Position numbers and translations under genes: made by a program. From Rhizophagus irregularis (lineage: Eukaryota > Glomeromycota > Glomeromycetes > Glomerales > Glomeraceae): DNA of 64,000 bases. The stretch lies in contig NC_089453.1 in NCBI RefSeq assembly GCF_026210795.1, positions 3,040,501 through 3,104,500 on the forward strand. Reading direction: 5' to 3'. Shown here piece after piece: positions 27,661 through 62,929 of this stretch. The notes beneath the pieces were generated by a model, which did not search any database, was not told the DNA's origin, and saw only the letters and a list, made by a program, of their open reading frames with translations. Within the stretch, counting starts at the first letter, position 1, and each line of letters opens with the position of its first letter.

Positions 27661-27838
27661 TTCCTGTTGGAAAAAAAATATTATTATTTCCTTACCAAAA
27701 AAGAAATGATCGTTATTTATTTTGACCATAACGTGCGTCCCTGTAAGTCATGTGTTAAGCGATCTACAATGAATTTTCCACATAAAAAACATTATTAATG
27801 CTAAAATTTACTTTTTTTTAAAAAAAAGTATTTATATT

Positions 27839-43776: not shown

Positions 43777-43839
43777 TTGCTAAGAACTGGTAGGTTTATT
43801 TTTTACCGACATACCGTGATGGCATAATTGAATAAACCT

Positions 43840-44405: not shown

Positions 44406-44417
44406 AACTGAAGATTT
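44406..44417 (+). promoter_or_regulatory. AACTGAAGATTT motif
   Basis: Thirty-eight nt upstream of the ATG at 44444, between two T-runs; one mismatch to AATTGAAGAT. Confidence 0.55.
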
Positions 44418-44443
44418 ATATTTTTTACAAAGTACAAAGAATC

Positions 44444-44999: not shown

Positions 45000-45023
45000 C
45001 TATAGTATAAGTAACATAACATC

Positions 45024-45883: not shown

Positions 45884-45917
45884 CAATTAGGTATGTAGAC
45901 ACGTACAGAAAAAAGAC

Positions 45918-46502
45918 ATGTCATACCCTTATATAACTAATCCTATAACTGGACGTCCAATCCGTGTTGGTGGAGATACCTTTAATCGAATAGTTATGGA
46001 ATCCCATGATTATATCGATGGAAGGCTTGTCCGTAGACAAACCGTACCGCCTCCACCCCAGGAACAACCTGTATATTTAAATACAGATACAGGACGCTAT
46101 ATTCAACACGGTACTAGAACGTATCATAGACTGGTTGAGAGTGACTACGAGGTAGTTGAGGACTACTACCTTGTTCATTCTGAAGAGGAGGAGCTTATAG
46201 AGGAAATCATCAATGAAACACGCTATAATGAGGAAAATCTTGATGGCCAGCGGTTAACTTTCAATAATATACAACAAATCAGAGCCGCTATTCAAGCTGA
46301 CCAAGATGAATATGATGATTTTATCTTACAGCAGAATACGACTAACGGGACACCTTCCTCCGGTCCTTCCGGTCATCCACGAACTTTGGAGGACCATGCC
46401 CCGAGACTTGCAGAGCTTAATATTGAGTTGTGTAGGGAATGTCTCATGCCTGTAAGCCCAAGTGACTTAACGGACAAGTTGTGCAAGGACTGCGCTTCCT
46501 AA
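45918..46502 (+). CDS. NPxTGRxI-motif protein with C-terminal zinc ribbon, 194 aa
   Basis: Two related N-terminal modules, ITNPITGRPIRVGGDTFNRI and YLNTDTGRYIQHGTRTYHRL, match the core of the 2-cysteine adaptor motif (NPxTGRxIxxGGxxYxxL) found in large DNA viruses, but the flanking cysteines are missing. An acidic middle region (HSEEEELIEEIINE) follows. The C-terminus CRECLMPVSPSDLTDKLCKDC is a CxxC…CxxC zinc ribbon. This combination suggests an adaptor or DNA-binding role in the replication or packaging of the element. Intact gene with its own promoter motif. The 2C-adaptor link is motif-level only. Confidence 0.65.
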   Translation: MSYPYITNPITGRPIRVGGDTFNRIVMESHDYIDGRLVRRQTVPPPPQEQPVYLNTDTGRYIQHGTRTYHRLVESDYEVVEDYYLVHSEEEELIEEIINETRYNEENLDGQRLTFNNIQQIRAAIQADQDEYDDFILQQNTTNGTPSSGPSGHPRTLEDHAPRLAELNIELCRECLMPVSPSDLTDKLCKDCAS

Positions 46503-46603: not shown

Positions 46604-46662
46604 AATATATAAAAAAGATTGTGAAGGATACTAAGTGAGCGAATAATCAAAGAAAGATAGCC

Positions 46663-47214
46663 ATGTCAACATCAATCGTAATAAACCAGTGTCAGAACTG
46701 TGGAGTATTCTCTGCAAAAGCGGCATATAGAGGATTATCCAGCGTGTTGTATAGACAGATTATAAAGAAGATTGGTGACGAGAGTGAACCTTTACAAGCC
46801 TTGGGACTTGCCAGGGATAAGTTGGTCCAGATTATCCGTCGGGCAAGTAATGCGGATTTTACGCAATTATTCACACAAAGACTAGATATGAAAATTATGG
46901 ACGGAGATTCATACGAGGATACTAGGAAGTGGCTTCTTGAACAGCTTATAGCCATTGGATGTGACAGTGGGGAAATTGCCTTATATCAGTTCTTACAGAA
47001 TACATACCCGGATGGTATTGATGAACCCTTTACTACATTCTATGAGAACTATGTAAATCATGTAAGAAATCCGATGACTAATAACTTTGCTTCTCGAGCC
47101 TTAGGAGCTATTGGATTAAAAGCTAGGATGCTACGGATTGACTTCGAAGGACGTAAAAAAAGTGCCATGATTCTTAGGGCTTCTGCAGAAGAACTTCGCG
47201 AGATGGGTTGCTAA
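46663..47214 (+). CDS. Orphan protein of the element, 183 aa
   Basis: Intact frame. A single CxxC (INQCQNCGVFS) near the N-terminus is followed by helical sequence (LYRQIIKKIGDESEPLQALG, RDKLVQIIRRASNADFTQLF) and a basic C-terminus (RMLRIDFEGRKKSAMIL). No known domain recognised. It converges on the packaging ATPase with only 13 bp between stop codons. It may be a minor structural or DNA-binding protein; this is a guess from size and context. Confidence 0.6.
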   Translation: MSTSIVINQCQNCGVFSAKAAYRGLSSVLYRQIIKKIGDESEPLQALGLARDKLVQIIRRASNADFTQLFTQRLDMKIMDGDSYEDTRKWLLEQLIAIGCDSGEIALYQFLQNTYPDGIDEPFTTFYENYVNHVRNPMTNNFASRALGAIGLKARMLRIDFEGRKKSAMILRASAEELREMGC

Positions 47215-47227: not shown

Positions 47228-48418
47228 TTACAAAATACTATTGATCCCTACTCGTAATGCTCGATGGTCCATATGACCCTTAGAAAAGATCTGTAAAAGG
47301 ACCCCGATGCCTTCTATTATTTTTTTATTATCCAAAGGGTGACTAGACTTCAGGACTTCATATCGGAAGAATAACTCCTTTACGGTCTCAGATTTTGGAA
47401 TTTCAGTCTTCGCGGTCCTATCCCGTACTTTTGCTAAGAATTTTTGGAAGTCTGATCCCAGGGTTTTACCAGATAGTCCGTAGGCTTCCCGAAAGACGTA
47501 CTTAATCCAGGTATCTGCGTTCTTAGCTATAATACCAGATACGAGGAGGTGTTTTCTCTCTTTAGGCGATGGATATTCCCGAGCAAACTCAATTAGCTGG
47601 GAGGACTTTTTTGCTTCAGCTACAGCTTTCTGGCCATAAGGACTAAACTTTGATCGAACTGGGTTCAAACTCGGATCGAACGGGGATTGAACTGAGTTCG
47701 AACTAGGATCGAACTGAGATTGATCAGTGATCGAACTGAGACTAGTATCCCATCTAACCCGAATGGATAACGGATCGCTCTTGGATCTTCTAAGATCAAA
47801 TACTATAAATTCGCGTTGCAGAGTAAGGTCATCGATTACTGGAGCTAGTGACTCCGATTCTTCTGTATACTGGCGGATGATCCTCTTAGTATCAGTCAAA
47901 CTTCCGTGACCTCCATGTAGGGAAATATAATTCACATTTTCACGAATAGCCTTGGGAATGGTAAAGAATCTTTGGGCCACATAAATACATGAAATATTTT
48001 TGTGTCGTCCGTGTGTAAAAAATCCAGTGATGAGATCCTGGGTTTTTTTAGGCGTATCCATCAAATCCTCGAAGATTACCACAGTAGCCTGGGTGGAGTT
48101 GAAGTCCTTAACATTTGGAATCTCACTATGGGATACTGCGGTAAACGGAATTTCTTCTTCTTTGAAAAAATCACGTACGACTGCCCACTTCGGTTCATCG
48201 AGGTATCTGCCAACTAGAATTACCGCATCACATAATATGTACCTTTTGCCATCCTCCTTTGCCTTCTTGTCTCCCATTAACAAATTAATGATCATAGTTG
48301 TCTTACCCGAGTCAGAACTTCCTGCTACGGCAAGACGGAAAGGCCATGATGGGGCAAACTCATTACCCTGTCTCGAGTCGGTCGTGTACTCGTCCAAATT
48401 GTATACATAAAGATCCAT
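47228..48418 (-). CDS. A32/FtsK-HerA-type genome-packaging ATPase, 396 aa
   Basis: The N-terminal 230 residues carry Walker A (RLAVAGSSDSGKTTMI, about residues 28-43), Walker B (ATVVIFEDLMD, about 111-121) and a sensor region (NISCIYVAQRFFTIPKAIRE), followed by NVNYISLHGG. This is the arrangement of the poxvirus A32-like ATPases that load DNA into capsids and are standard in Polintons and virophages. The C-terminal half has short FDPS repeats (QSPFDPSLNPVRSKFSP) and a charged helical domain unlike the core family. The gene is intact. It is divergent from the coiled-coil gene at 48447 with only 28 bp between start codons, so both promoters must overlap coding sequence. Presence of a packaging ATPase implies a capsid encoded somewhere in the element. 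Confidence 0.87.
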   Translation of the reverse strand: MDLYVYNLDEYTTDSRQGNEFAPSWPFRLAVAGSSDSGKTTMIINLLMGDKKAKEDGKRYILCDAVILVGRYLDEPKWAVVRDFFKEEEIPFTAVSHSEIPNVKDFNSTQATVVIFEDLMDTPKKTQDLITGFFTHGRHKNISCIYVAQRFFTIPKAIRENVNYISLHGGHGSLTDTKRIIRQYTEESESLAPVIDDLTLQREFIVFDLRRSKSDPLSIRVRWDTSLSSITDQSQFDPSSNSVQSPFDPSLNPVRSKFSPYGQKAVAEAKKSSQLIEFAREYPSPKERKHLLVSGIIAKNADTWIKYVFREAYGLSGKTLGSDFQKFLAKVRDRTAKTEIPKSETVKELFFRYEVLKSSHPLDNKKIIEGIGVLLQIFSKGHMDHRALRVGINSIL

Positions 48419-48446
48419 TTGAATTTTATTCTAATTTAGTTTAAAT

Positions 48447-49154
48447 ATGATGTCGACACCAATTGCAATTTATACTCCTTCAGAGCCTACTGGACCGCCT
48501 CCTAGGGATTTGCGTGATATGAATAATATACCATTAGTTGCGGTAATTAAGGATCTAACAGATTTTTTAACTGTCAGTGATCGCATGGTTGTTAATCGAG
48601 ATGTACAAAATGCAAACCATCGTCTTAAACATGCTCTTAATTTATTAATTCATCGCTGTAGAGAAACATACGAAGAACGCGATATATTAAAAGCGGAATG
48701 CGATCGATCTCGAAAAGAACGCGATGAATTACAAGACGAACTCGAGGTTCAAATAGGTTTGTTAGGTCTTACACAAGATGAGCTAAATATCATACAAGAT
48801 ACTATTACTGGTTTAGAAGCTAATTTGGCTGAATTGGAACGTGAGTTTGGTGGTATGCGGACGACTAATCGTCGTCTTCAGCAGCAATATAATCTTATGA
48901 GAGGAGAACGTAATAGAGCTATAGGTGAACGTAATAGAGCTATAGGTGAGCGTGATGTGGCACGAAATCGGCTTGTATATGCCAATAATCGGGTTCTTTT
49001 TGGAATTCGAACATTGGGACGTCTTAGGAATCGACTTTTCCAACAAATAGCTGCTCTGCGTATCCAAGTACAATGGTTTCGGATTAGACAATTGAACCCT
49101 CCTCCACCTCCTCTCAACCATCCACAAAATACGATATGGCTGCCATTGGTATAG
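48447..49154 (+). CDS. Coiled-coil protein preceding gag, 235 aa
   Basis: A Pro-rich start (PSEPTGPPPRDLRDM) is followed by about 140 residues of heptad-rich coiled coil (RETYEERDILKAECDRSRKE, two GERNRAI repeats). A basic segment and a PPPPPLNHPQ tail follow. Its last 19 bases overlap the start of the gag-like gene in the -1 frame (ATGGCTGCC within the final codons). It may be translated separately or joined to Gag by frameshifting. It could serve as a scaffold or N-terminal assembly arm for the Gag capsid. No homologue recognised. Confidence 0.65.
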   Translation: MMSTPIAIYTPSEPTGPPPRDLRDMNNIPLVAVIKDLTDFLTVSDRMVVNRDVQNANHRLKHALNLLIHRCRETYEERDILKAECDRSRKERDELQDELEVQIGLLGLTQDELNIIQDTITGLEANLAELEREFGGMRTTNRRLQQQYNLMRGERNRAIGERNRAIGERDVARNRLVYANNRVLFGIRTLGRLRNRLFQQIAALRIQVQWFRIRQLNPPPPPLNHPQNTIWLPLV

Positions 49155-49561
49155 CTGCCCCTATATTTCATGGTCGGGAAGATGAAGATCTTAATCTTTT
49201 TATTGATAACTTTTTAGGGTATATTAATACCGTTGGTATTGATCCATTGGACGATGCCGGTGCGCCTCCGGGTCGGGTGCGAGCGATGGGGGTTCTTCGT
49301 AGCTGTATGAGAGATGAAGCGGCGAGGTGGTTTGATGCAGAACTTACTGGAAAAAATTGGGAACTCTCAAATATTCGGTTAGTGGCTACTGCAAATGGTG
49401 GAGCCGGTGCTACTCGCCGAGCGTTCAGAGCTTTAGCTGTTCCTGAGGTTGCTAATAGATTACATGTTGGTACTTACTTACCCGGGTCTGATGCTGATGT
49501 ATATTCAAGGGTTGCAGGTAATGTGGCGGTAACCGTTGGAGATGCATTTTTCCCATCACGC
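49136..49561 (+). pseudogene. gag: Gag-like capsid gene of the Polinton-like element, 5' part
   Basis: The frame from ATG 49136 gives PIFHGREDEDLNLFIDNFLG, RVRAMGVLRSCMRDEAARWF and further Gag N-lobe sequence. It is the FxGxxDxxxxxFLxxF…LxxxAxxWF pattern of Ty3-type capsid. The frame is interrupted at 49561 by the Ty3 insertion and then reads into LTR sequence until a stop. The missing remainder is at 59138-60217, in register once the insertion and one copy of ACGC are discounted. The codon use and GC are those of the surrounding element genes, not of the AT-rich Ty3 element. Confidence 0.78.
49558..49561. repeat. Ty3 target-site duplication, left (ACGC)
   Basis: ACGC directly precedes the TG of the left LTR and recurs at 59134-59137 directly after the CA of the right LTR. 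Confidence 0.85.
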
Positions 49562-50868
49562 TGTAGCCATAGATACTGAAGTAATCGCATAATATGGAGG
49601 AATAATATGGAATAAAAGATTAAACGATAGAAAGTCACATGATTGGATAAAATTAACCGGAAAGGATAAACTCTTAGGAGAAGGAATGATCTACATGATG
49701 TAATGTTTATTAAATGATTAACGGAGAACCAATAGATCAAGTAGGGAGTTGATCGATGTGGCTTAGCAACCAGTTTATCAAGTTCAACAATAGGAACAAT
49801 TAGGAAGAGTAATCATAAGCCACAAATGATAAATCATATAAAAAGGAAGGATAGCGAATTAAAGGAACAAAAAAATAGGAACATGTAAAATATTGATGAA
49901 CTGCAGCCGCAGTAAAAGAATAGCGGACGAGACGCAGTAGAAAAGATAGCACAGCCACAAAAGATGAATCTTTACGATATAATATTTGAAAGATTACTTT
50001 ATTTTAAAGAAAAGATAGCACAGCCACAAAAGATGGATCTTTACGATATAATATTTGAAAGATTATTTTATTTTAAAGAAAAGATAGCACAGCCACAAAA
50101 GATGGATCTTTATGATATAATATTTGAAAGATTATTTTATTTTAAAGAAAAGATAGCACAGCCACAAAAGATGGATTATATCTTTACGACATAACATGCG
50201 AAAGATTATTTTAAAGAAAAGATAGCATGTTAAAATAGTATAACATATTAGAAAAGATAACATATAAAATAGCATATAGGATAGCGCATAAAAGATAACA
50301 TAAAATAGTAGAAAGAAATAAGAAGTAGGAAAAGAAAGAATAAGAAAGTTGGTTTAAATAGGAGCGGAATGGGAAGTGAATTCCACAGTCGTCAGATACG
50401 ATGTAAAACTTTAAGTAAATTAGTTAATTGTGAATTTTATGAAGAATAAATAAAATACCCTTTATATGAAAATTAATTGTTCCGATTGTTTTTGTTACTA
50501 TTTTCTTATGATGAAAAAGTAATTTTGTTTAATTAATTGTTAGTAAAGTATAATGTTATTTTAAAGGTAATAGGTTCGCCCTAAACTTTACTGTAATGTT
50601 CGCTTAATTAATTTTAATTGGACAAATTCATGGTGAATTTAATGTCATAACAAGAATTATGAAATGAATAAAATATAAACTTTTGTAAAGAGAACTATCA
50701 TATTTTGAAAGAAGATAATGGATGAAATATCGTGGCGAGAGCTATCACAATTTGAAAGTTAAGTAGTAATAAAACTAAACCAAGCAAGAATATTAATGTT
50801 TCGTGGAGAACGAATATACATTAAAGCAGGGAAGTTTGTTTACCGCCGGGTGGCAGACGGGGGTGACA
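49562..50868 (+). repeat. Left LTR, 1307 bp
   Basis: Starts TGTAGCC and ends GGTGACA. It contains an ATATAAAAAGG TATA box near 49835 and three tandem 69-bp units (49964-50170). Compared with the right LTR it lacks one 69-bp unit, which accounts exactly for the length difference. Confidence 0.92.
49964..50194 (+). repeat. 69-bp in-frame tandem repeat in left LTR (three units)
   Basis: Each unit encodes MDLYDIIFERLFYFKEKIAQ plus PQK in one open frame and carries its own ATG; the frame ends at YIFTT. The right LTR has four units. The array is in the probable 5' leader of the transcript. Whether the peptide is made is unknown. Confidence 0.7.
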
Positions 50869-50871
50869 ATT

Positions 50872-50889
50872 TGGTGCATGCTCCGAGAA
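50872..50889 (+). promoter_or_regulatory. Candidate primer-binding site
   Basis: TGGTGCATGCTCCGAGA starts three bases after the left LTR. Position and the TGG start fit priming by the 3' CCA end of a tRNA; the tRNA species was not identified. Confidence 0.45.
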
Positions 50890-52566
50890 AGGAAATGTCG
50901 ACTTTGCATCGACATTTTGACTATCTTCATATAGTCAAGTACCTATGCGGTATTAAGAAGGAAACGGTTAACAACTAAGTGAATTGATCACTCGCGAAGG
51001 GAAGGATCGTTCCGATCATGGTACCGACGTGGTATTCCAAAGAATCTGAACTCAGAAAAAGAGGTGTTAGAATTAAAATATAATATTGGGGAAAAAGGTT
51101 GTAAGTACCTGAAAAACTTTAAAATGGGAACGGGCGAAATAGCGATATTGTACACCTACCTTAGGAATTATAAAAAGAAGGATGCGGTGATATGATGGAA
51201 TATAATGAACTCGTTTCAAAGTAATAGATTTGTTACAAGAATATCCGGAAAAGTATTGTAGTAAGTCACAAAAGTTGTCGTCTTTAAAGTTTTTGCGCTA
51301 ATAATTGTAAAACCAAGAAATTAAGGAAGCCCTCGTAAGATGTTGTATTCTGGGAGGGGCACCATTGTATTTTGCAGATGCCAGAAGTTCCTGGGGATAC
51401 AATGTTGTAACGAAAAGTTGACGAGTAAACTATAAACTCAAGGGTTACGTGGGAACCTGTTACCAAAACACAAGGGTTGCGTGGGAACCTATTTAAAACA
51501 CAAGGGTTACGTGGGAACCTATTACAAAAACACCGGCTGTGAATATAACTTCTTCGGATGGGAATCGAAATAATTGGACTCAGACGTGAGTGGAACATCT
51601 CCCTACTGAAAGCATTTTGAGAATGCGTAACTGAATTCACAAGGCAAAAAGAGAAACCATCGTGAGTATAATTTCTTCAGATGGAACTGGAAGCATTGAG
51701 GGAAATGCGCAACTGAACTCATGAAAAGAAGATAAGTATTATGGGATAAGATGAATAGCAAACCTCGAAACTACTATACTTCATTGGGAAGGTAAAGGCA
51801 AGCCGAGTATAGGTTATTGAATTGTAAAAGATAATAAATAAGAAGAAACACCGTTAAATAAGTATAAATGCGTGTGTCGCATAAGTATAAATGCGTGTGT
51901 CGCATAAGTGTAGATGCGTGTGTCGCATAAAGTATAATATGTTGTGTGTCGACATAATGGTTATGATAAGAGTTAGTACAAGATTAAACAAAGAAGATAT
52001 TTTGCGTAATATTAAATATATGGATGTAAAGATTACATATATAATGAAAAAGAACTAAGAATTCACGAACTTTAGAAGTTATGAGAATTTTGAAGTTCGT
52101 GAAATGCGAAAATTATAAATTTCGATGATAAAAGAAAATTTTGAGGCGCAGTAAAAACTTAGAAAATTTTTGAAATTTTTAGAATGCGCAGTAAAAACCT
52201 CCGCAGTCTGAGGAGATTGTGGACTTAGAATAATTTTTGAATTAATGGCGCAGTAAAATATATACATGAAATTATGAAAGATAAGAATAGCGGAAGAAAC
52301 TTGTGAAAATCAAAAAAGGGGATTTAAAGATTGAAAGATCAACATGAGAATATTATGAATAAGTAAAAGATTTAGAAGAATAAGTTGTTAAATGAATATT
52401 CTTAATGAAAGAAAGATTATACATTCAATATAGGTAATAGAAAAGGACGATATAGTAAAGGATGGTTAGAAGATCAAAATAGAAGCGATAAAAATGATAT
52501 ATAAGAGAGCGGAATTTCAATTTGAATTCTGGATGAATATTTATAATAATTTAATTGGAGTATACG
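50890..52566 (+). other. Long untranslated leader of the Ty3 element with tandem arrays
   Basis: No protein frame. Three copies of a roughly 35-bp unit with GGGTTACGTGGGAACCT lie at 51439-51532. Three exact-length 23-bp units AAGTATAAATGCGTGTGTCG (plus CAT) occupy 51860-51928, with a degenerate fourth. GCGCAGTAAAA recurs three times at 52146-52258. These may be packaging or translation signals. Confidence 0.6.
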
Positions 52567-53583
52567 ATGGAATGGTACCATCAATGGGAAAGTGAATATA
52601 GGACACATAAAGAAGAACATGAGTTAAGAGCGGGAGAATTAGATGAATGTTTAAATTGTGAATTATGTCATCCGATAGAAAATGAACCAATGGTATTCAA
52701 GAAATTTTGGGATGCATTATTTAAGTTCGAAGATACAATAGTAATATATAATAATGTAACGATCAAGGGAGTAATAGATTTATTAAGTATGGATAATTCA
52801 GAAAGAGAAGATACAATACACAAGGGAAAATGTAGAGACATAATTGATAGAATAACGGAATCAATAAGATATAGAATACAACCAAAAATGAAAGAAAAAG
52901 GATTACGAACGATTATATTAGTAATTGTAAGAGATTGTATTGAAGGAGATTTAGGGAATGAAGTATTTGATAGGTTAATCGGAAATCCTGAATTAATAGA
53001 ACACAAATATATTTTGGAAGATTGGGATGTTGAAAGAAGGTTTGAAAAATTTTGGCAATGGTACAAAATCACATCGAAAGAAGTTGAACCATTACGAGTA
53101 AAGTTGGGAGCAATAAAGACATTCAGGGAATTACTTTATGAAGAAGAGGGAATAGCTACGAATGAGGAGAAAGTAAAAGAGTTAATGTCCAACATGGAAC
53201 ATGGGAATATAGACATAGAAAATGTTCACGAATATCACAGGAATATGGTACAAAAGATAATAAGAATATTTATAGATACTAGGGGCTTTATAAAAGAACC
53301 AGAAGATTCGGAAAGTGAAGATAGCTTAGAAAGTTATGAAATGAAAAAGAATTTTAACGTGAGTTTATATCTTAGATTTGAAAGATTCAGGTACTGGTGG
53401 AATGACAAATATGAAGGTAAACAAATACATACATATCATGAAAATGATTCATTAGAATGGTTTGAAAAGATGTTATCTGAGGGAGAAAATTTGCAAGAAG
53501 ATACTGTAAGAAAACTAATGGATAGTATGACATTTAAAGATAGCGAAGATATATATACAGTACAAGAGATCCTATCATATTGA
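52567..53583 (+). CDS. Ty3 element first frame: acidic Gag N-terminal extension, 338 aa
   Basis: Starts at ATG 52567 (MEWYHQWESEYRTHKEEHEL). It is highly charged, rich in Glu and Lys, with a CLNCELC cluster near residue 35 and no recognised catalytic motif. It ends with a four-base overlap with the next frame in the -1 register. It could be an ancestral N-terminal extension of Gag separated by a frameshift, or be joined by ribosomal frameshifting. No classical slippery heptamer was seen at the junction. Confidence 0.55.
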   Translation: MEWYHQWESEYRTHKEEHELRAGELDECLNCELCHPIENEPMVFKKFWDALFKFEDTIVIYNNVTIKGVIDLLSMDNSEREDTIHKGKCRDIIDRITESIRYRIQPKMKEKGLRTIILVIVRDCIEGDLGNEVFDRLIGNPELIEHKYILEDWDVERRFEKFWQWYKITSKEVEPLRVKLGAIKTFRELLYEEEGIATNEEKVKELMSNMEHGNIDIENVHEYHRNMVQKIIRIFIDTRGFIKEPEDSESEDSLESYEMKKNFNVSLYLRFERFRYWWNDKYEGKQIHTYHENDSLEWFEKMLSEGENLQEDTVRKLMDSMTFKDSEDIYTVQEILSY

Positions 53584-56207
53584 GAATAGATGATGGTGTA
53601 ATAGAATGGGTTGTAACAGATTTAAAAGAAACAATGGAAAGAACACAAAAATTCAAGTTAGTAGAGATAAAGCAAGAAGAAGATAATGAAATGTATGATT
53701 CTGAAGAAGAAATAGAAATAATAGTAGAAGATAAAACGTGGAAGTTAAGTGAAATAAGGACAGGATTAAGACAACTGATGGTAAATCCAAAAGAAGAATT
53801 CATCAGAGAAATAATGAAATTTGGAATAAAAGAAAAGATAGAGACGGGAGTACTGTTGACATATGATTTTATAAGATATTATATTTTTCAGGAGGGGAAA
53901 TTTGATAAGTCTGAAGACATAAAGGAATGGACAGATTTGAGTACAAAAATATGTGGTAGATGCAATAAACAGAAATTAGATTATGTGATATCAGAAGAAG
54001 ACGGCAGATGTGAAGAATGTAATCGGGAAATACGGGAAGATGAACAAGATGAATTAATAGAACTAAAAAACAACTTAGAAAAATTAGGATACGAAATGGA
54101 TGTATCGGAAATTCAAAGAATAAAGAATTTTGGAGTTAATAATCGAATAATGGTAACAGAAGAGTTCATAGAAGGGTATATGGGAATAATAGAATTAGAA
54201 GATAGAGAGTTAAGAAAAGAGATTCATAAGTGGTTAAATGAGAATACAACTTGGTGCGAAAGATGCGAAATAAGATGGATGAATGATATGTTTAGATTAG
54301 GAGGAACTGTATGCAAAGATTGTGAGGAGGAAGATGTCGATGAAATTGATGATCGGATAAAAAGATTACAGAAGATTTTTGAGGATATTGGAATAATGAT
54401 AATTGAAGAGGAATTGTTAAGATTAACTAGTATGGGATATACAGATGGAGAAATTTTAGATAAAGAATTTATCGAAACCTTTCAAGAAAATAAAAATGAG
54501 TCAGAAAAAGAACTAAAGAAAAAGTTAGATAAGTTGTTGAAAGAACAAGCAGGAGTAATAGATAGTGAAGAAAGTGGTGAAAAGAGTGATAATGAACAAT
54601 CAGAAGAAGACAATACGGATAATTCAGAAAAGATTGGAGAAATATTAAGTCCAGAAGAATATGAAATATGGGATGGAAGTGATGAAGATTTTGAAGAAGA
54701 AGAATCTGAAAATGAAATCGAAAATGTTATAAATACAGGAGGTTTTGGTCTGAATCAAAATTCAGATTCGAATAGTTCATTAAATTTTAAAAATTCTGAC
54801 ACAGAAAGTGAAATATCTGATTACAATTTACAAGAATTATTTCAAGAGAATATAGTAAATATGGCAAATGAAGCACAAATAAGAAGAATAATGGAGAATG
54901 CTATGGGATTGGCACCAAATGCATTAGATAATGCGTTAGGAGCAGGACAGACTTTGGCGGATAGGATTCAGACTGCAGGAATGGGGGGAATAGTAGGTAT
55001 GCCAACTTTTAGTGGAAAAGAGGATGAAGATATTAATGATTGGATTAGACAATTTGAGATAGCATTTACAGTAAGTGGACGACCAGAAGGAAATGTTGGA
55101 GGAGGTGTATGTAGACAAAATAAGGCAAACATAGCTATAACTTGTTTAAGAGGAATTGCATTACAATGGTATAATGAGGAAAAAGAAAGGGTAGCAGCTA
55201 ATTTAGTGAATTGGTGTGATCATAATGAGGACAGGAATTTAAAAAGAAGATTAATCGACAGATTTACTAGGAATGATGTTCAAAGAAGAAAGATGTTAGA
55301 ATTAACAAGAATTAAACAGGGAACAAATGAAAGTGTTGAAGAATATACTAGAAGATTTAGGTCAATATTAAGAGTTGCAACTAGAGGTCATGCGTTAGAT
55401 GATTTATATCAAGTGAATTATTTTATTCAAGGGTTAGATGCCATGCTAGGTTATCATGTTAGGAGAAGTAATCCGACGAATCTGAATGATGCAGTTAACG
55501 AAGCAAAAAGAGAAGAGGAAGCGAAAGATGAGTTGTTAATGAAAACAACGGGGTTAGATATGAAACGAGTAGGACAAGAGAAAAACATGGAAGAAATTTT
55601 GAAAGAAGAGACAAATAAATATAAAGGAATGAATCCAATTACGAAAGAATTACAAAATAAAGAAGTTAAAAGTGATGAATGGGATGAGTTAATTAATGGA
55701 ATGAAAAGGTTGGAAGCACATGTAATGCAAAGAAATGAGGCATATGTAATGCAAAGGAATGGGAATGATAGGAGACCGATCGGAAATAATAATGTCCAAA
55801 GAAATAATATGAACTGGGATAGAATGACTTGTTATACATGTGGAAGAAAAGGACATACTTCTAGAGTTTGTAGGGAAGGTCAAAGAAGATCATATGGAGG
55901 AAATAATAAAGGGTCATATAGCCAAAATAATCAAGTTAATTACCTTGATGAAGAATATTATGGTGAAGGATATAATGTGTATAATATGGAATATAATGAT
56001 GGATATGATGGATATAATGAGGGTGATGGATATGATAACTATAATAATGGATTCGATGGATACGAAGTGAATAACTATGAAGATAAGGAAAGATATGATA
56101 TGTTCCCAGTACTACCTAGAAAGAGTGAAAGAAATAAGGACAAGGTTATGAATGATGAAAGAGATAAAAGAAGAAGAGAACGAAACAATTATCCATTTAA
56201 GGATTGA
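53580..56207 (+). CDS. gag: Ty3 element Gag with zinc knuckle, about 875 codons
   Basis: The open frame begins at TTG 53580; the first ATG is about 53635. Residues 1-330 are acidic, with two CxxC…CxxC pairs (CGRCNKQ…CEECN, CERCEIR…CKDCEEE). The Gag capsid core follows: MPTFSGKEDEDINDWIRQFE, GIALQWYNEE, a FTRNDVQRRKMLELTRIKQG stretch, and SVEEYTRRF. Near the C-terminus a CCHC knuckle CYTCGRKGHTSRVC (about residue 757) binds RNA. A Tyr/Gly/Asn/Asp-rich tail follows. The frame is intact. Confidence 0.85.
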   Translation: MRIDDGVIEWVVTDLKETMERTQKFKLVEIKQEEDNEMYDSEEEIEIIVEDKTWKLSEIRTGLRQLMVNPKEEFIREIMKFGIKEKIETGVLLTYDFIRYYIFQEGKFDKSEDIKEWTDLSTKICGRCNKQKLDYVISEEDGRCEECNREIREDEQDELIELKNNLEKLGYEMDVSEIQRIKNFGVNNRIMVTEEFIEGYMGIIELEDRELRKEIHKWLNENTTWCERCEIRWMNDMFRLGGTVCKDCEEEDVDEIDDRIKRLQKIFEDIGIMIIEEELLRLTSMGYTDGEILDKEFIETFQENKNESEKELKKKLDKLLKEQAGVIDSEESGEKSDNEQSEEDNTDNSEKIGEILSPEEYEIWDGSDEDFEEEESENEIENVINTGGFGLNQNSDSNSSLNFKNSDTESEISDYNLQELFQENIVNMANEAQIRRIMENAMGLAPNALDNALGAGQTLADRIQTAGMGGIVGMPTFSGKEDEDINDWIRQFEIAFTVSGRPEGNVGGGVCRQNKANIAITCLRGIALQWYNEEKERVAANLVNWCDHNEDRNLKRRLIDRFTRNDVQRRKMLELTRIKQGTNESVEEYTRRFRSILRVATRGHALDDLYQVNYFIQGLDAMLGYHVRRSNPTNLNDAVNEAKREEEAKDELLMKTTGLDMKRVGQEKNMEEILKEETNKYKGMNPITKELQNKEVKSDEWDELINGMKRLEAHVMQRNEAYVMQRNGNDRRPIGNNNVQRNNMNWDRMTCYTCGRKGHTSRVCREGQRRSYGGNNKGSYSQNNQVNYLDEEYYGEGYNVYNMEYNDGYDGYNEGDGYDNYNNGFDGYEVNNYEDKERYDMFPVLPRKSERNKDKVMNDERDKRRRERNNYPFKD

Positions 56208-56430
56208 AGAAGAAGAAGACTTCATACTAGTAGATGTACACATTATAATAAGACTAAAAGAGAAAAAGGTGAAATTAATTATGGAAGATGGAAATAATAT
56301 GATAATAGAAGAAAGACCAATAGAAAAAGGATTAGGATGGGTACGATCTAAATTGATTATAGGGAATGAAAAATATATAAGAAGGATAGAAATACCAGGG
56401 ATCAAAAATAAATCAAGAGATAAAAATTAA
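56152..56430 (+). pseudogene. Possible retropepsin remnant of the Ty3 element
   Basis: A 92-codon frame overlaps the gag end. Hydrophobic strands then LIMEDGNNMIIEE and GLGWVRSKLI recall the start of a retropepsin around its D[TS]G loop, but the catalytic motif would be EDG. The frame stops before the rest of the protease. The identification is weak. Confidence 0.3.
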
Positions 56431-56539
56431 AAATATATGGAAACAGTTATCACGACGCTTTATTTTTACAACACCTTAATTCTTTTTTACAACACCTTAA
56501 TTTTTACAACACTTTAGCTTTTAGAATTACAACATAGAC
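56431..56539 (+). other. Junction where RT/RNase H should be
   Basis: Only 109 bp separate the protease-like frame from the integrase frame. The spacer has three copies of TTTTACAACACCTTAA-like sequence and looks like a deletion scar or filler. Confidence 0.55.
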
Positions 56540-57727
56540 ATGGAAGAGGAAGAATATAATAGGATAGCGAGGAATATCAATGACGAACGGGAATATGAAA
56601 TTATAGGAGGATTAATTTACAAAATAAAAGATGAGAAAAGACTAAGAGTGATAAGAAAATACGAATTTGAAGGATTAATGTACATAGCTCATGATCATGA
56701 ATTATCAGGACACTTTGGAATAGATGCAACGTATAATAGGATCAAGGATGGGTATTATTGGAAAGGGATGAGAAAAGATGTGGAAGCTTATGTCAAATCA
56801 TGTAATAATTGTCAGAGAAGAGGAAAACCAATAGGAAAACATGAACTGAATGTAATCAAAGTTATAGAACCATTTTATCAAATTGGGATTGATGTAGTGG
56901 GACCATTACCAGTAACAAAGAGAAATAATAGATATATAGTTACAGCGATGGATTATTTTACAAAATGGCCTGAAGCAAAGGCATTGGAAACAGCAGATGC
57001 TAAGGAAATTGCAAGATTTATTTATGACAATATAATATGTAGGCATGGATGTCCAAAGAAGATATTGAGTGATAGAAGGAGTCATTTCAATAATAAATTA
57101 GTGAAATCATTAATGGAGGAATTTCAGATAAAACATAACTTTTCGACGCCTTATCATCCAAAAACTAATGGGTTAATTGAAAGATTTAATAAGACATTAT
57201 GTGAATCATTAGCAAAGCTAAGTAATATCGAAGATTGGGATTTGAAAGTACCAGGAGTATTGTTCGCGTATCGAACTAAAAGGAATGATTCAACGAAAAT
57301 GGAACCAGGATATTTAATATATGGGAGACAAATGAAGACATTATTAGATTTAGAAGATAAGGAAATTACCATGGCAGAGAGAGTTAATGGGTTGATCGAA
57401 GGATTACCGAACATTAGGAATCAAGCTAAAGAAAATGTCAGGAAATCTCAGGAAAAACAAAAATCGTATCATGATAAAAAGAATAGAATAAAGCAGAAAT
57501 TACAAATCAGAGATAAAGTACTATATTATGACGCAGCAAAAGAGAAACAATGGTCTGGAAAGTTAGAAGAAAAATGGAAAGGACCTTATTATGTACATGA
57601 GATAATTTCTAAAGGATCATACAGAATTAAAACTATGGAAGGGAAGATATTGAAAACACCAGTAAATGGTGAATTACTGAAAGAATATATTGATAGGACA
57701 AATTTTGAAGTAATAGTTCGAATTTGA
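56540..57727 (+). CDS. int: Ty3 element integrase, 395 aa
   Basis: The zinc-binding HHCC domain is visible (HDHELSGHFG…CNNCQ, residues about 51-94). The catalytic core has D in YQIGIDVVGPLP, D in KKILSDRRSHF and E in GLIERFNKTL. The C-terminal region has the GPY/F-type segment WKGPYYVHEIISKGSY. There is no chromodomain after it. The gene starts at its own ATG, so it was separated from the missing polyprotein. It appears catalytically complete and would integrate cDNA made elsewhere. Confidence 0.88.
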   Translation: MEEEEYNRIARNINDEREYEIIGGLIYKIKDEKRLRVIRKYEFEGLMYIAHDHELSGHFGIDATYNRIKDGYYWKGMRKDVEAYVKSCNNCQRRGKPIGKHELNVIKVIEPFYQIGIDVVGPLPVTKRNNRYIVTAMDYFTKWPEAKALETADAKEIARFIYDNIICRHGCPKKILSDRRSHFNNKLVKSLMEEFQIKHNFSTPYHPKTNGLIERFNKTLCESLAKLSNIEDWDLKVPGVLFAYRTKRNDSTKMEPGYLIYGRQMKTLLDLEDKEITMAERVNGLIEGLPNIRNQAKENVRKSQEKQKSYHDKKNRIKQKLQIRDKVLYYDAAKEKQWSGKLEEKWKGPYYVHEIISKGSYRIKTMEGKILKTPVNGELLKEYIDRTNFEVIVRI

Positions 57728-57740
57728 TGGGACTCAAATT

Positions 57741-57757
57741 TTAGGTGGGGGGCAAAC
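57741..57757 (+). promoter_or_regulatory. Polypurine tract
   Basis: TTAGGTGGGGGGCAAAC lies directly before the right LTR, the expected place for plus-strand priming. Confidence 0.7.
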
Positions 57758-59133
57758 TGTAGCCATAGATACTGAAGTAATCGCATAATATGGAGGAATA
57801 ATATGGAATAAAAGATTAAACGATAGAAAGTCACATGATTGGATAAAATTAACCGGAAAGGATAAACTCTTAGGAGAAGGAATGATCTACATGATGTAAT
57901 GTTTATTAAATGATTAACGGAGAACCAATAGATCAAGTAGGGAGTTGATCGATGTGGCTTAGCAACCAGTTTATCAAGTTCAACAATAGGAACAATTAGG
58001 AGGAGTAATCATAAGCCACAAATGATAAATCATATAAAAAGGAAGGATAGTGAATTAAAGGAACAAAAAAATAGGAACATGTAAAATATTGATGAACTGC
58101 AGCCGCAGTAAAAGAATAGCGGACGAGACGCAGTAGAAAAGATAGCACAGCCACAAAAGATGAATCTTTACGATATAATATTTGAAAGATTACTTTATTT
58201 TAAAGAAAAGATAGCACAGCCACAAAAGATGGATCTTTACGATATAATATTTGAAAGATTATTTTATTTTAAAGAAAAGATAGCACAGCCACAAAAGATG
58301 GATCTTTACGATATAATATTTGAAAGATTATTTTATTTTAAAGAAAAGATAGCACAGCCACAAAAGATGGATCTTTATGATATAATATTTGAAAGATTAT
58401 TTTATTTTAAAGAAAAGATAGCACAGCCACAAAAGATGGATTATATCTTTACGACATAACATGCGAAAGATTATTTTAAAGAAAAGATAGCATGTTAAAA
58501 TAGTATAACATATTAGAAAAGATAACATATAAAATAGCATATAGGATAGCGCATAAAAGATAACATAAAATAGTAGAAAGAAATAAGAAGTAGGAAAAGA
58601 AAGAATAAGAAAGTTGGTTTAAATAGGAGCGGAATGGGAAGTGAATTCCACAGTCGTCAGATACGATGTAAAACTTTAAGTAAATTAGTTAATTGTGAAT
58701 TTTATGAAGAATAAATAAAATACCCTTTATATGAAAATTAATTGTTCCGATTGTTTTTGTTACTATTTTCTTATGATGAAAAAGTAATTTTGTTTAATTA
58801 ATTGTTAGTAAAGCATAATGTTATTTTAAAGGTAATAGGTTCGCCCTAAACTTTACTGTAATGTTCGTTTAATTAATTTTAATTGGACAAATTCATGGTG
58901 AATTTAATGTCATAACAAGAATTATGAAATGAATAAAATATAAACTTTTGTAAAGAGAACTATCGTATTTTGAAAGAAGATAATGGATGAAATATCGTGG
59001 CGAGAGCTATCGCAATTTGAAAGTTAAGTAGTAATAAAACTAAACCAAGCAAGAATATTAATGTTTCGTGGAGAACGAATATACATTAAAGCAGGGAAGT
59101 TTGTTTACCGCCGGGTGGCAGATGGGGGTGACA
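57758..59133 (+). repeat. Right LTR, 1376 bp
   Basis: Same ends as the left LTR and four 69-bp units (58160-58435). About seven single-base differences from the left LTR, all transitions. Followed by ACGC (59134-59137). Confidence 0.92.
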
Positions 59134-59137
59134 ACGC

Positions 59138-60217
59138 GCTGATATCGTTAGAACGAATTTTAAAGTTGAAGAGCAGTGGAGGCGTGCGGGCGGACGTCCT
59201 ACTCATCAACCCGTTAATGGGTTGGGAAATCATGGAGGTCCATTTAATGCTGCTGTCCAGAATCAACCAATAGTCTTACAGGGGATTCTCCTGGATCAAG
59301 CATTTATGCATATGCGTACAAATTTTCCAACCGTCGTGGAAGAAAGACTTCAGATACGATTTAGTAATCTTTACCAGGAACAAGGTGAACCTGTTCGATC
59401 TTACTATAAGCGAGTTGAGAGGGCTGGGGATATTGTAGGATATAATCGAATTATGGTTACTGACCAGTTCTATAGAGGACTTTTGCCGGAAAACGTTATT
59501 GAAGCTTCCAGAATCGGGGCAGCGCCTCTTAATATATTAATCGATAGATTGAGTGATCTTGAGCGACGAAAGGGTGAAATGTTCTATGGATTACAAAGGT
59601 GCCAGGGTATTGAAAAGGCTAAAAAAGAGGAATTGGCTGGCTATACTCATCCCGTGACTCCACACGAAGGTGCTGTAATACAAAGGTCGACAGACGTTAT
59701 TACTCAAGAACGATTACAAGAATTGCTTAAGGCGCAGGCCGAGGAACTTACCAAGAATTTCCAGGCACAATTTAAACAATTACAAGTATCTAAGCCAGTT
59801 CGTAAACTACCGGTCTATAGACAACAGATTAAACCTGTTCGGCCAAAGCCACGGCCACGCGTTGTTCAGGATCATCAGGATCCTGATTGGGATGATGGTT
59901 ATGTAGATCATGATTTTGGTGATGACCCTGGTGACCCTGATGCTCCTGAGTGGACTAGTGAGGATGAACAACATGTTATTGATCTTATTATGGGATTTGA
60001 GACGTCTAAAATATTTCCAAAGAGACTTCAGAAGGCTAAAGATAGACGCGATGATCTGGAATTAGCCCGAGCAATGAGAAACCTCGATCTTAATGATGAT
60101 GCTATGGATATTGATACTAATACCGCGAGTTTTGATGACTTGAAAATTGTTCCTGATGAGGAAGGTGGTTTTCGGATTTGTGCGGTTCGAAGTACAAAAA
60201 AAAGTAAACTCGGATAA
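59138..60217 (+). pseudogene. gag: Gag-like capsid gene of the Polinton-like element, 3' part
   Basis: Reading continues in register with 49136-49561. It has LQIRFSNLYQEQGEPVRSYY and YRGLLPENVIEASRIGA, then NILIDRLSDLERRK, which is the Gag C-lobe pattern with its QxxxExVxxYxxRF-type homology. The protein then has a Gln-rich helix, a basic Pro segment (KPVRPKPRPRVV) in place of a zinc knuckle, and an acidic end. The total would be about 500 residues. The frame ends at 60217 just after an A8 run (60196-60203), where the protease frame overlaps by 71 nt. Confidence 0.78.
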
Positions 60218-60925
60218 GGGTGTAAGTATCTCGAAACTTCTTAAATCTGTTCCAAAAAAATCAGTTAAAATGACTCCTATTAAGATTCCTGTGAAGGTTA
60301 CTAGTAGTAAGCCCACACTTATAAAAGCCGTCACCAAAAATGATTCATTAAGTTTATTAAGGTCTGCAGATTTTAGAAAATTACTCCGCGAGATTCTTCG
60401 GGAAGAATTAAAGTCTGCTCGTAAAAGTACGGAGATTCCGGAAGACCTAGTTGAGGAAAAACAAGAAGAGGATATCAGGGAAGATGACCTGATGGATATT
60501 GACATAGCTCGTTTGGAGAATACTAAAGATCTTTTAGCGCTGGATGGAAAGGTCAATGTGATAGCAATTCAGTGTTTAGCAGACACTTGTGCTAACGCGT
60601 CTTTTATTCAGAGGGAAGCCGCTGAAGAATTAGGGTTGGATATCGACAAGAGTATTACACATAACATATCCGGCGCTCCGGGTTCTGGTAGGACATTCGG
60701 CATGGTAAAAGGTGTGTCAATCAAACTAACCCTGATTGTGTAATCACTAAGAATCTCGCGGTTTTAAGCGATTACAAGCATAGGGAGATTGGATTGAGCC
60801 GGACGTGTCTGAAACGTTACAATTATGATGTCCATGAATCACGTGAACATATCGCCCTTACTTGTAATGAGAAGAATGTTTTTATCCCAATAGTTTCTGA
60901 TGTGAATCGAGGAGACAAAAAATAG
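60147..60925 (+). pseudogene. Retropepsin-like protease of the Polinton-like element, frameshifted
   Basis: After a basic/acidic linker the frame gives IQCLADTCANASFIQREAAE, followed by ELGLDID and GAPGSGRTFGMVKGVSIKL. This is the (I/L)(A/V)DTGAxxSFI pattern of retropepsins, with DTG changed to DTC. The 60147 frame closes at 60743, but homologous-looking sequence (CVITKNLAVLSDYKHREIGL, LKRYNYDVH) continues in the -1 frame to a stop at 60925. Relative to gag the middle part is one base out, so an extra A in the A8 run plus a later base loss explains the whole. Alternatively gag-pro frameshifting is programmed at the A8. No reverse transcriptase follows. Confidence 0.7.
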
Positions 60926-60947
60926 GGAATATTTATTTTTTATTCCC
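60925..60947. terminator. Hairpin between convergent protease and integrase genes
   Basis: GGGAATA (60925-60931) and TATTCCC (60941-60947) form a 7-bp stem around a T-rich loop and overlap both stop-codon regions. It could act as a bidirectional 3'-end signal; evidence is structural only. Confidence 0.4.
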
Positions 60948-62030
60948 AAAACTTGCGGATTAAGGCAGGGACATCCTCCTCCAACCGGTCAGCGGGTTCC
61001 CAAGTGGCTTCGGTATCTGGGTATCGTTCCCACTTGACTAGATACTGGTCTTGACCCTTCCTGATGCGATGCCGGAGTATCCGCTCAGGTACAAATCTTT
61101 CGGGTTGCCCTCTTATCACGGAGTCAGGTGGGGGATGTTCATTTTCTGGAACAATCTGCAACTCTTTTCGGGTGTACGCACATCTGGATACACCTAGACG
61201 CCCGTGTGGTCCATCAAGAAGATACGTAGGAGGCTGTTCGGGTGAGAGGATCATTTTTTTGATGACACGGATATTGGGATTCCATCTTATGTCACCTGTA
61301 CGAAATTTTCCATGGAGTTTATTCCCGAGTACTGAAATAGGTTCATCTAACTTGACTCGGACATGTGTTCCTTCAGAGAGAAGTTCCGTCTTTTTTGACA
61401 CTTTGGGTGACCCTGTCGGAATGTCTGGGGGATTTCTCTGCCAGATTTCATCTATTTTATTAACTACATCACGGAAATCTTCTGACCATTCCACGGATGT
61501 CACCCCGGTCTTCAACTCCTGTGCCACCATTCGTTTTAGGAGAGGTTCCTGGATTGCTTGGATGGCTCGTTCAGCATATGATTGCTGTTTGTGTCTTCCT
61601 GGTTCGCCGAACCTCATCATTACCCCTAGGCTGTTCAGGAAAAAATCACGTACCTGGTCGTTAGTGAATTCTGATCCGGAGTCTGTCTCCAGTCTGTGTG
61701 TTGGTGGCTTAATACGATTTCTTCTGTAGATTTTGACAAACCCGTTTAGAATCCTATTTGCAGTCTTATCCTTTAGGGGTTCTGCATTGACTTGTTTACC
61801 CGCGACTTCCACCACTACGAGGAAATAGTGGAATCCTTTGGGGTCGACTGGCATCTCTGCAAGATCTCCTGATGTGTTGCATTTGGTTTCCATACAACTA
61901 CTCGTGGACGCTCTGATGACTTCTCCTTTAGGGGCTTTTTATATAGGTTGTAGTGCTCCTCACCTTTTAGAATTCGTGCCGGTACTCTGGAGAGATTGTA
62001 GTATTTGTAGTAATTCTCTAAATGCGACAT
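60940..62030 (-). pseudogene. int: Polinton-type integrase with chromodomain, frameshifted
   Basis: The start is placed at the ATG at 62030 (MSHLENYYKYYNLSRVPARI). The N-terminal part (to WKPNATHQ) and the rest (from DLAEMPVDPKGFHYFLVVVE) are in different frames. One missing base around 61861-61873 explains the break, which falls at the first catalytic Asp region. Downstream, the second Asp is in HRLETDSGSEF and the Glu in GRHKQQSYAERAIQ, and TGVTSVEWSEDF is also seen. The C-terminus is a chromodomain (ILRHRIRKGQDQYLVKWERY, TEATWEPADRL), as in many Polinton and chromovirus integrases, likely guiding insertion to marked chromatin. About 363 residues in total. Confidence 0.83.
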
Positions 62031-62074
62031 ATTACGACAAATTAAAGGAAAGATTTCGGACTTCAAATCTTAAG

Positions 62075-62395
62075 ATGACACGATTTTACTGCCTAAAGTG
62101 TAAGAAGGAAACCGAGACTGCTAGTGAAATACAAGATATGACCACAAATGGCCGCTATCGTTTACATGGTGACTGTGTAGTTTGTGGGATGCATAAGAAT
62201 ACTTTTACTGGGATAGACTGGGTTATCAAAAAGAAAACCAAGGAGAAGAAAAAAGAAACCGCAGCTAAAAGACATCAGACGGCGTACAATCGGCAATGCA
62301 AAAAACTCGGGCAAAAAATTTTAGAGGCTGATGACGCGTGTAAACAGTGTATTGATAAATGCCTTAAGGAGGCAAAAAAGAGGAAGACGGATTAG
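62075..62395 (+). CDS. DUF5679-like small zinc protein, 106 aa
   Basis: The start is chosen at ATG 62075 because it directly precedes the conserved part MTRFYCLKCKKETETASEI; upstream codons overlap the divergent integrase. Then NGRYRLHGDCVVCGMHKNTF follows. The YCxKCK…NGRxxxxGxCxxCG pattern is the DUF5679 zinc-ribbon signature known from phages, large DNA viruses and Polinton-like viruses, function unknown. The C-terminal 60 residues are very Lys-rich with a second CKQCIDKC cluster. It is divergent from the integrase by 44 bp. Confidence 0.72.
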   Translation: MTRFYCLKCKKETETASEIQDMTTNGRYRLHGDCVVCGMHKNTFTGIDWVIKKKTKEKKKETAAKRHQTAYNRQCKKLGQKILEADDACKQCIDKCLKEAKKRKTD

Positions 62396-62404: not shown

Positions 62405-62929
62405 CTAAAAGTATTCCTCATCATCTGAGTCATCGAGAGATACCTCTCCATCATCTGATTCATCGTCTGAGTCATCAAGAGTGCGGCCTTCTTTAAGCAA
62501 TTGGATGTTATACGTTATTTGAGTCCATTTCTCCCAGTCGGACTCTTGCATTATAAAGTCACATCTGAGGAGAGCTCTTTCTACTGCCACCATTCCTGCG
62601 AACCTAGTGTATTTTTTCTGATCGGCTTCATTGAAATTGTCAATGGCCTCCCTGTAGTAGTCTACTGCCTGTTTGTATACCTTCTCAGCTTCTTTATGCC
62701 GCTTCCAGAGTACTTGTTCAGCTTCGGCTCTCCAGATTGGGCTGACTTCTAGAAGATGCGGTCCAAAATTGCTACTTGGAATACGTTCCAGGATATGGCC
62801 TACAAGTTCGGGGATTACTGATACTGCGTGCAGGTTTTGGTGGCTTTTTAGGATCTCCCTATTGATACCCATAACATCGGGGACTGTGCGGCCAAAGATT
62901 CCTGCCAACTTTTCTACGGTATATGTCAT
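62405..62929 (-). CDS. F-box-like protein at right end, 174 aa
   Basis: The start is the ATG at 62929 (MTYTVEKLAGIFG), which is inside the right TIR and is the exact mirror of the helicase start at the other end. Residues about 35-75 (VIPELVGHILERIPSSNFGP, LEVSPIWRAEAEQVLWKR) form an F-box-like helix set. A helical region follows (YKQAVDYYREAIDNFNEADQ), then an acidic tail of DDSDDE repeats. It would bind Skp1 if a true F-box. It converges with the DUF5679-like gene, 9 bp apart. Confidence 0.6.
   Translation of the reverse strand: MTYTVEKLAGIFGRTVPDVMGINREILKSHQNLHAVSVIPELVGHILERIPSSNFGPHLLEVSPIWRAEAEQVLWKRHKEAEKVYKQAVDYYREAIDNFNEADQKKYTRFAGMVAVERALLRCDFIMQESDWEKWTQITYNIQLLKEGRTLDDSDDESDDGEVSLDDSDDEEYF

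Follow-up and report, generated by a model that had tools for sequence, protein, structure and literature searches.

A Polinton-type element of Rhizophagus irregularis with a conserved Gag and retropepsin-like module apparently in place of the jelly-roll capsid set

The highest ranks of virus classification are based on the type of capsid, and Polintons fall in a group defined by the double jelly roll. Whether a Polinton can carry a capsid of another kind is the question raised by a locus of Rhizophagus irregularis (assembly GCF_026210795.1) that lies in a stretch of 64,000 nucleotides of contig NC_089453.1 (positions 3,040,501 to 3,104,500; hereafter the window, to which all coordinates refer). 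A sequence-only reading had described here a Polinton-like element bounded by terminal inverted repeats (TIRs), in which the sole capsid candidate was a retrotransposon-type Gag followed by a retropepsin. We examined the window (on contig C25) and its relatives across the genome (146.7 Mb in 32 contigs). On balance, the element seems to us to represent a Glomeromycotina lineage of Polintons/Mavericks that is without the varidnaviral capsid set (double-jelly-roll major capsid and adenain-type protease) and has instead, as fixed components, a Ty3/gypsy-type Gag and a retropepsin-like protein.

The predicted backbone is that of a Polinton/Maverick. The sequence-only reading had proposed a TIR-bounded element with a family B DNA polymerase (PolB), an SF3 helicase, a packaging ATPase and an integrase; the TIRs are 98% identical and enclose genes with Pfam matches to PolB, an SF3 helicase, an A32-type packaging ATPase and a chromodomain integrase. 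From left to right, the gene order is SF3/D5 helicase, PolB, five small open reading frames (ORFs), A32 ATPase (minus strand), coiled-coil protein, Gag, retropepsin-like protein, chromodomain integrase (minus strand), DUF5679 protein and a last small ORF (Table 1). The element starts at approximately 38 kb, where GC content jumps from about 25% to about 40%, and the outer end of its left TIR reads GTCGTCGGG. Four sister copies were fetched nearly whole, one from the window's subfamily (C23) and three from a second subfamily (C10, C4 and C1). The C10 and C4 copies had TIR matches at either end, and the C23 and C1 copies had one at a single end, the second end being outside the fetched stretch or unmatched (C23 was read without its left end). 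All three copies with both ends read were flanked by perfect target duplications (ACAAT in the window, ACTGA and AGGAT in the others), each of exactly 5 bp rather than the 6 bp usual in Polintons. Because of these TIRs and duplications, the whole unit, gag included, is a proper integrase product. PolB, with matches befitting a family B polymerase of the protein-primed Polinton kind, has 604 amino acids (aa), which is short for a polymerase bearing an exonuclease domain; its motifs (NDCLYECL at residue 100, SEGHYSL at 179, DATSLYPS at 343, LNTLWG at 467 and HTDG at 556) are ones that we take to belong to the OTU-like region and the palm. The integrase was counted as an rve integrase with a match slightly short of the cut-off (29.4 versus 32.6 bits), and is a single 376-aa ORF in loci L042 and L040. 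The window copy is damaged: a nested long terminal repeat (LTR) element splits its Gag, its integrase lies in two frames and its protease frame is shortened. The window sequence was left unrepaired, and the analysis relied instead on sister copies with open frames and on deposited proteins.

Identification of the Gag draws on scores from an alignment of relatives rather than from the window copy alone. The N-terminal capsid half has the signature P-x-F-x-G ... D ... F ... C-M ... A-A-x-W and aligned with the Gag of the nested LTR element at 24.6 bits, compared with a maximum of 6.9 in 2,000 shuffles (1,173 of which scored), and with an hhalign probability of 72–78%. For the C-terminal half, the top match among 177,635 PDB sequences was the PEG10 capsid domain (E = 0.017), and Retrotrans_gag was the top Pfam family in five of seven members (best E = 0.0017). 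PDB searches with whole-Gag profiles gave chance-level matches, among them PEG10 (0.28, wider profile). The matches are thus weak, yet they agree: they point to both capsid halves in the right order, next to a retropepsin-like protein. Several observations weigh against the identification. The Gag stayed below the Pfam cut-off (17.4 versus 24.1 bits in one table; whole proteins at best 0.029), and the two window parts on their own gave no Pfam Gag match. The C-terminal half aligned with the nested element's Gag without significance in hhalign and marginally by shuffling, with 2 of 2,000 shuffles reaching its score. Approximately 120 residues of unknown fold separate the two halves, Pfam found no zinc knuckle in the element's own window ORFs, and an AlphaFold model of the coiled coil, Gag and protease was uninformative (predicted local distance difference test score (pLDDT) 35) and was not used as evidence. 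The sequence-only reading had also stated that reverse transcriptase and zinc knuckle were missing; this agrees with the ORF list and with Pfam, which returned no reverse transcriptase or RNase H match in the element's own window ORFs, and sister copies had no additional large ORF around gag-pro.

Deposited R. irregularis gene models join the coiled coil, Gag and protease in proteins of 800–870 aa; these are models only, and the first junction that they use (GT at 48993 ... AG at 49087) is present in the window DNA. The C4 copy has gag and pro together in a single 737-aa ORF (L044), and the C8 copy has an ORF of equal length (737 aa; compared by length only). The overlap of gag and pro lies in different relative frames in the window (60144–60217) and in L042 (2948–2984), and is replaced by an in-frame fusion in L044 (4513–6723). 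The route of Pro expression seems to be readily changed between copies.

The retropepsin that the sequence-only reading had placed after Gag matched PF13650 above the cut-off (28.1 versus 24.3 bits), from a frame that is short in the window copy (199 aa, versus 260 aa in L040). All 19 aligned protease proteins have DTC at the active site, where retropepsins have DTG or DSG; the D-T/S-G triad is thus absent, and the predicted protease may be inactive, which is a point against a retroviral-type structural module. That pro is under purifying selection despite the DTC motif would fit an active protease of an unusual kind as well as a pseudo-protease that is conserved.

By the sequence-only reading, sister copies without gag-pro would point to an accidental insertion. 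All four sister copies had helicase, PolB, small ORFs, ATPase, coiled coil, Gag, pro and integrase in unchanged order. Searches of the genome gave at least 115 matches to Gag part 2, at least 143 to the ATPase and at least 74 to PolB; before counting, the 115 Gag and 143 ATPase matches were merged into 104 and 103 loci. A divergent ATPase lay within 12 kb of Gag at 95 of the 104 Gag loci, and Gag was found at 96 of the 103 ATPase loci; the distance was at most 2.5 kb at 87 loci of either kind. Spacing was narrowly distributed, as 87 of 98 Gag–ATPase spacings were 1.1–1.6 kb, of which 74 were 1.10–1.24 kb. Among the seven ATPase loci without a scored Gag, the two with a full-length, stop-free ATPase were inspected, and at each the coiled coil, a broken Gag and pro were all in place; this inspection covered those two loci alone and none of the nine Gag loci that lack a scored ATPase. 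The presence of the block at approximately 100 loci excludes a chance occurrence.

Both gag and pro are under purifying selection. Within the window's subfamily, the ratio of nonsynonymous to synonymous divergence (dN/dS) was 0.32 for gag (78 pairs, 13 rows) and 0.26 for pro (435 pairs, 30 rows). The 13 intact gag rows of the window family stand for 12 places (L011 and L040 are the same C23 place), and the 30 pro rows have one place doubled and include the window as L009; the intact-ORF rule took 15 of 34 gag-covering loci (L042 omitted), which may bias the ratios somewhat. Between subfamilies, the pairwise loci set gave 0.41 for gag and 0.11 for pro. In comparisons of the window with the second subfamily, dN/dS was 0.35–0.49 for gag, 0.14–0.17 for pro, 0.06–0.10 for the ATPase and 0.08 for PolB; Gag protein identity is only 47–56% because its constraint is weaker than that on ATPase and PolB. 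Such weaker constraint is common for structural proteins and also fits a conflict gene. Synonymous divergence (dS) in the same comparison was 0.75–1.25 for gag, 0.82–0.86 for PolB and 0.70–0.76 for the ATPase, values that are rough at approximately 50% protein identity. As gag dS is as high as that of PolB and ATPase, the gag module is old and predates the subfamily split, and a gain of gag after the split is unlikely. Other counts temper this picture. Counted by distinct variants, dN/dS rose to 0.38 for gag and 0.39 for pro, indicating moderate constraint, and in the window against the near-identical C23 copy the two gag parts stood at 0.56 and 0.74 and pro at 0.42, from few changes. The direct neighbours of gag had lower dS (coiled coil 0.57–0.63, pro 0.58–0.64, integrase 0.45–0.58), leaving some room for a gag older than its neighbours or partly exchanged. 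Remaining small ORFs had dS of 0.18–0.69, and this gene-to-gene variation makes exchange of segments between copies likely. Helicase dS was 0.59–1.18 and identity 53–83% between the window and the second subfamily, in which some copies have a different helicase version: among otherwise similar copies, identity of the SF3 helicase to the window was 83% in L041–L042 versus 53–54% in L043–L046. The helicase seems to have been exchanged between Polinton subfamilies.

A jelly-roll capsid gene at the place of gag-pro was, for the sequence-only reading, another sign of an accidental insertion. No unassigned ORF in the window and four sister copies was longer than 218 aa (antisense ORFs reached 224 aa), and the 218-aa ORF overlaps a divergent helicase at the latter's start. 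For a double jelly roll, approximately twice this length is required; judged by size and Pfam, such a capsid does not fit any ORF outside the assigned genes, and no gene of that size stood at the place of gag in these copies, which agrees with Gag as the sole capsid candidate of fitting size. The element minus its insert has 15,113 bases, of which 92.5% are in listed ORFs and TIRs, and the widest gap between these measures 450 bases. Among the element's scanned window ORFs, none had a Pfam match to an adenain-type (Ulp1/C5) cysteine protease. Genome searches with adenain and nucleocytoplasmic large DNA virus (NCLDV) capsid families were silent, as were their controls, and do not by themselves show absence. 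The orphan adjoining the ATPase was modelled by AlphaFold as all-helical (pLDDT 46) with no significant fold match; the model was not used as evidence. According to a 2014 survey of 72 published Polintons, the major capsid protein (MCP) was intact in 46 and split in 13, an adenain-type protease was present in 74%, and among those with no MCP, nine had lost PRO and ATPase as well (section 4) (PMC4028283). Because nine of the published Polintons that lack the MCP have lost the ATPase, an ATPase kept without an MCP calls for another capsid.

Together, these data indicate that gag-pro is almost certainly a conserved functional module of the element, and that it probably replaced the jelly-roll structural module. 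The capsid swap put forward by the sequence-only reading is therefore supported in so far as gag-pro is conserved and no ORF of jelly-roll size was found; the Gag shell and the DNA packaged in it are the part that we still infer. Whether the shell holds the element's DNA we regard as an evenly balanced matter, and we are equally divided over the broader proposal of an integrating double-stranded DNA (dsDNA) virus lineage with a retrotransposon Gag shell, a varidnaviral A32 ATPase that works it and a protein-primed linear dsDNA genome inside, a cross between varidnaviral and retroviral structural systems which would have arisen by capsid exchange across realms with the replication and integration machinery kept. 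In such a lineage, the integrase would insert linear dsDNA, giving the 5-bp target duplication, and PolB would copy the DNA in a protein-primed reaction starting at the TIR ends; the OTU-like domain would free the terminal protein, and unwinding would fall to the SF3 helicase. Splicing, frameshift or in-frame fusion would yield coiled coil, Gag and Pro as one or several products. Gag would then assemble a capsid, matured by the protease (its activity being in doubt, given DTC) or by another route, and the A32 ATPase would load or dock the element's DNA. If true, the structural module would be exchangeable across realms and a dsDNA genome would be held in a retroviral-type shell, explaining why a packaging ATPase is kept in a Polinton without jelly-roll genes. 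The long-open questions of whether Polintons form particles and what their ATPase packs would become testable in a culturable fungus. There is a real possibility that this Polinton-type element, with a Gag-Pro module in place of the polintovirus capsid set, is a virus of a new kind.

Fv1 and truncated Gag proteins block competing elements. We considered gag-pro as a conserved accessory module, for example a trans-dominant Gag acting in this way against Ty3/gypsy elements or a carrier that brings RNA or the integrase complex to the nucleus, in an element that moves as a plain transposon. The faster evolution of Gag (dN/dS of 0.35–0.49) relative to ATPase and PolB is what conflict would produce, LTR elements are frequent in this host, with one inside the window Gag, and the protease motif is DTC. 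However, capsid genes likewise evolve fast, and the packaging ATPase is conserved like PolB, with gag no more than 2.5 kb away at 87 of the 103 ATPase loci. An accessory module should also be missing from some copies, yet none of the six inspected besides the window lacks it (gag is broken in two). Given an ATPase by nearly every Gag and no other candidate of fitting size, a capsid role is more likely than an accessory one, which we consider unlikely.

Less probable still is a true jelly-roll capsid that was missed, with gag-pro as an extra. Such a capsid might be encoded by a small ORF or one that is spliced, or might come in trans from a different element or a virus, as in satellite elements. 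Several small ORFs have no recognised fold and could include a single-jelly-roll protein, which would count against Gag as the shell; the Gag and orphan models were of low confidence (pLDDT 35 and 46), and the silence of the adenain and NCLDV-capsid searches was shared by their controls. Against this stand the 218-aa limit on unassigned ORFs in the window and four sister copies and the dense occupation of the insert-free element.

We rejected as scarcely credible that an LTR retrotransposon had long ago inserted by accident into one ancestral copy and been carried along, although the Ty3/gypsy type of Gag and protease and the occurrence of nested insertions could be cited for it. Gag-pro is present in two subfamilies with gag dS of 0.75–1.25, is under purifying selection and has a conserved linkage to ATPase (95 of 104 Gag loci). 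Remnants were also absent: the DNA of the nested element had no match in the sister stretches, where gag-pro was not flanked by direct repeats of at least 80 bp. In agreement with the sequence-only reading, the LTRs in the span 48447..60925 are not the Polinton Gag's own, because they are part of a later insert (49562–59133). This insert encodes a Gag (53544–56207) whose zinc knuckle scored below threshold, an integrase of H2C2/rve type (56525–57727) and a 342-aa ORF; a reverse transcriptase ORF was not seen among its ORFs. Counting the window, the genome has 40 scored matches to it at 84–100% identity, which suggests a successful non-autonomous LTR family retaining integrase.

Outside the genes discussed above, the fast-evolving ORF beside the right TIR was matched only at its start in the C4 and C1 copies. 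The start of the integrase and the DUF5679 ORF overlap on opposite strands in the window (61829–62069), and both are conserved. Left of the element (18755–31985), the window has dispersed repeats that encode related small proteins with a shared C-terminal CKEICYDTV...YLLNKSL...NECIFYYKQQ, an unnamed repeat family.

Table 1 Predicted features of the Polinton-type element and its nested insert, in window coordinates
Feature	Position	Strand	Evidence and remarks
Left TIR	38755..39280	+	Inverted copy at 62925-63443; 5-bp ACAAT duplication alongside
SF3 (D5-type) helicase	39267..41837	+	DUF5906 3.4e-17; Pox_D5 0.0026 (below cut-off); GQGWGKG at residue 205
DNA polymerase B with OTU-like region	41962..43776	+	PF03175 3.2e-6, above cut-off
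ORF restricted to the window's subfamily	43828..44361	+	Present in C23; no match in C10, C4 and C1 copies
Conserved ORF	44408..44914	+	4/4 sister copies; dN/dS 0.18-0.29
F-box-like small protein	45015..45440	+	F-box 0.0083 (below cut-off); 4/4 sister copies
Protein with 2-cysteine adaptor-like motif	45891..46502	+	PF08793 0.001 (below cut-off); 4/4 sister copies
Conserved ORF adjoining ATPase	46639..47214	+	4/4 sister copies; dN/dS 0.09-0.40
A32-type genome-packaging ATPase	47228..48430	-	Pox_A32 8.2e-11, above cut-off; GSSDSGKT and VVIFEDL; dN/dS 0.06-0.18
Coiled-coil protein	48435..49154	+	Fused to Gag in deposited gene models (P0001 and others)
Gag part 1, candidate capsid N-terminal half	49136..49561	+	24.6 bits versus LTR Gag; hhalign
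Nested LTR element (outside the system)	49562..59133	+	LTRs 49562-50868 and 57758-59133; 4-bp ACGC duplication
Gag part 2: middle insertion, candidate capsid C-terminal half, tail	59134..60217	+	PEG10 E 0.017 and Retrotrans_gag 0.0017, both from aligned relatives
Retropepsin-like protease, DTC active site	60144..60743	+	PF13650 3.4e-6
Chromodomain integrase	60940..62069	-	Chromo 8.1e-18; rve 1e-6; frames 60940-61938 and 61815-62069 here
DUF5679 protein	61829..62395	+	DUF5679 1.4e-17; 4/4 sister copies
Fast-evolving ORF beside right TIR	62405..62974	-	62% in L040; partial in L041
Right TIR	62925..63443	-	TIR length ~520 bp; ACAAT outside

Relatives of the proteins were not confined to this genome. 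In a listing of the best 120 of 195 protein matches, the named top matches were proteins of R. irregularis; the listings for PolB and Gag covered the best 120 of 184 and of 201. Among these best Gag matches was a protein of R. diaphanus (P0277, 76%), and further relatives came from JGI, ENA and other records (P0256 74%, P0258 71%, P0288 55%, P0285 49%, P0286 47%, P0289 41% and P0291 41%); this set aligned across 72–100% of the query. Given their short contigs, these records are probably metagenomic, and PolB relatives in them had identities down to 53% among the best 120 matches. Scans of IMG/VR gave no relative of Gag, PolB or ATPase. Searches of the open literature, judged by titles and abstract openings, gave no description of a Polinton with a Gag and a retropepsin; subscription journals were mostly outside this coverage. 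By text search, the term 'gag' was absent from PMC4028283, PMC11071308, PMC11075540, PMC4642659 and PMC3671162 and had unrelated mentions only in PMC8647823 and PMC6431247. Papers on R. irregularis transposons, in their accessible portions, mention Maverick elements without gene content (PMC8647823, PMC11075540).

Compared with known systems, the element is like Polintons/Mavericks in its TIRs, PolB with an OTU-like region, rve integrase, A32/FtsK ATPase, SF3 helicase and length of approximately 15 kb without the insert; a chromodomain on the integrase also occurs in some Polintons. Unlike them, it has 5-bp duplications, and a Gag and retropepsin-like protein were found instead of a double-jelly-roll MCP and an adenain-type protease. 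Mavirus likewise differs in having jelly-roll capsid proteins and a cysteine protease. By layout, the 604-aa PolB and separate helicase resemble those of mavirus-type virophages: in one account, the mavirus PolB is described as TP-vOTU-palm with no exonuclease, the SF3 helicase being separate from it (PMC11071308). Ty3/gypsy elements (Metaviridae) and PEG10/PNMA share with our element the weak sequence matches in both candidate capsid halves and the retropepsin profile. In contrast to Ty3/gypsy elements, an LTR of its own, reverse transcriptase and zinc knuckle were not found, approximately 120 residues lie between the capsid halves, and DTC replaces DTG. Caulimoviridae also place a Gag-type capsid around dsDNA, but they replicate by reverse transcription and lack PolB, A32 ATPase and integrase. 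Bidnaviridae have a parvoviral capsid and no integrase–TIR transposon backbone. The account cited for mavirus presents bidnaviruses as a case of a Polinton-type PolB with an unrelated capsid, in which a parvovirus with a single-stranded DNA genome acquired PolB (PMC11071308). Differing from our element in that single-stranded genome and parvovirus origin, Bidnaviridae nonetheless provide a precedent for a PolB joined to an unrelated capsid.

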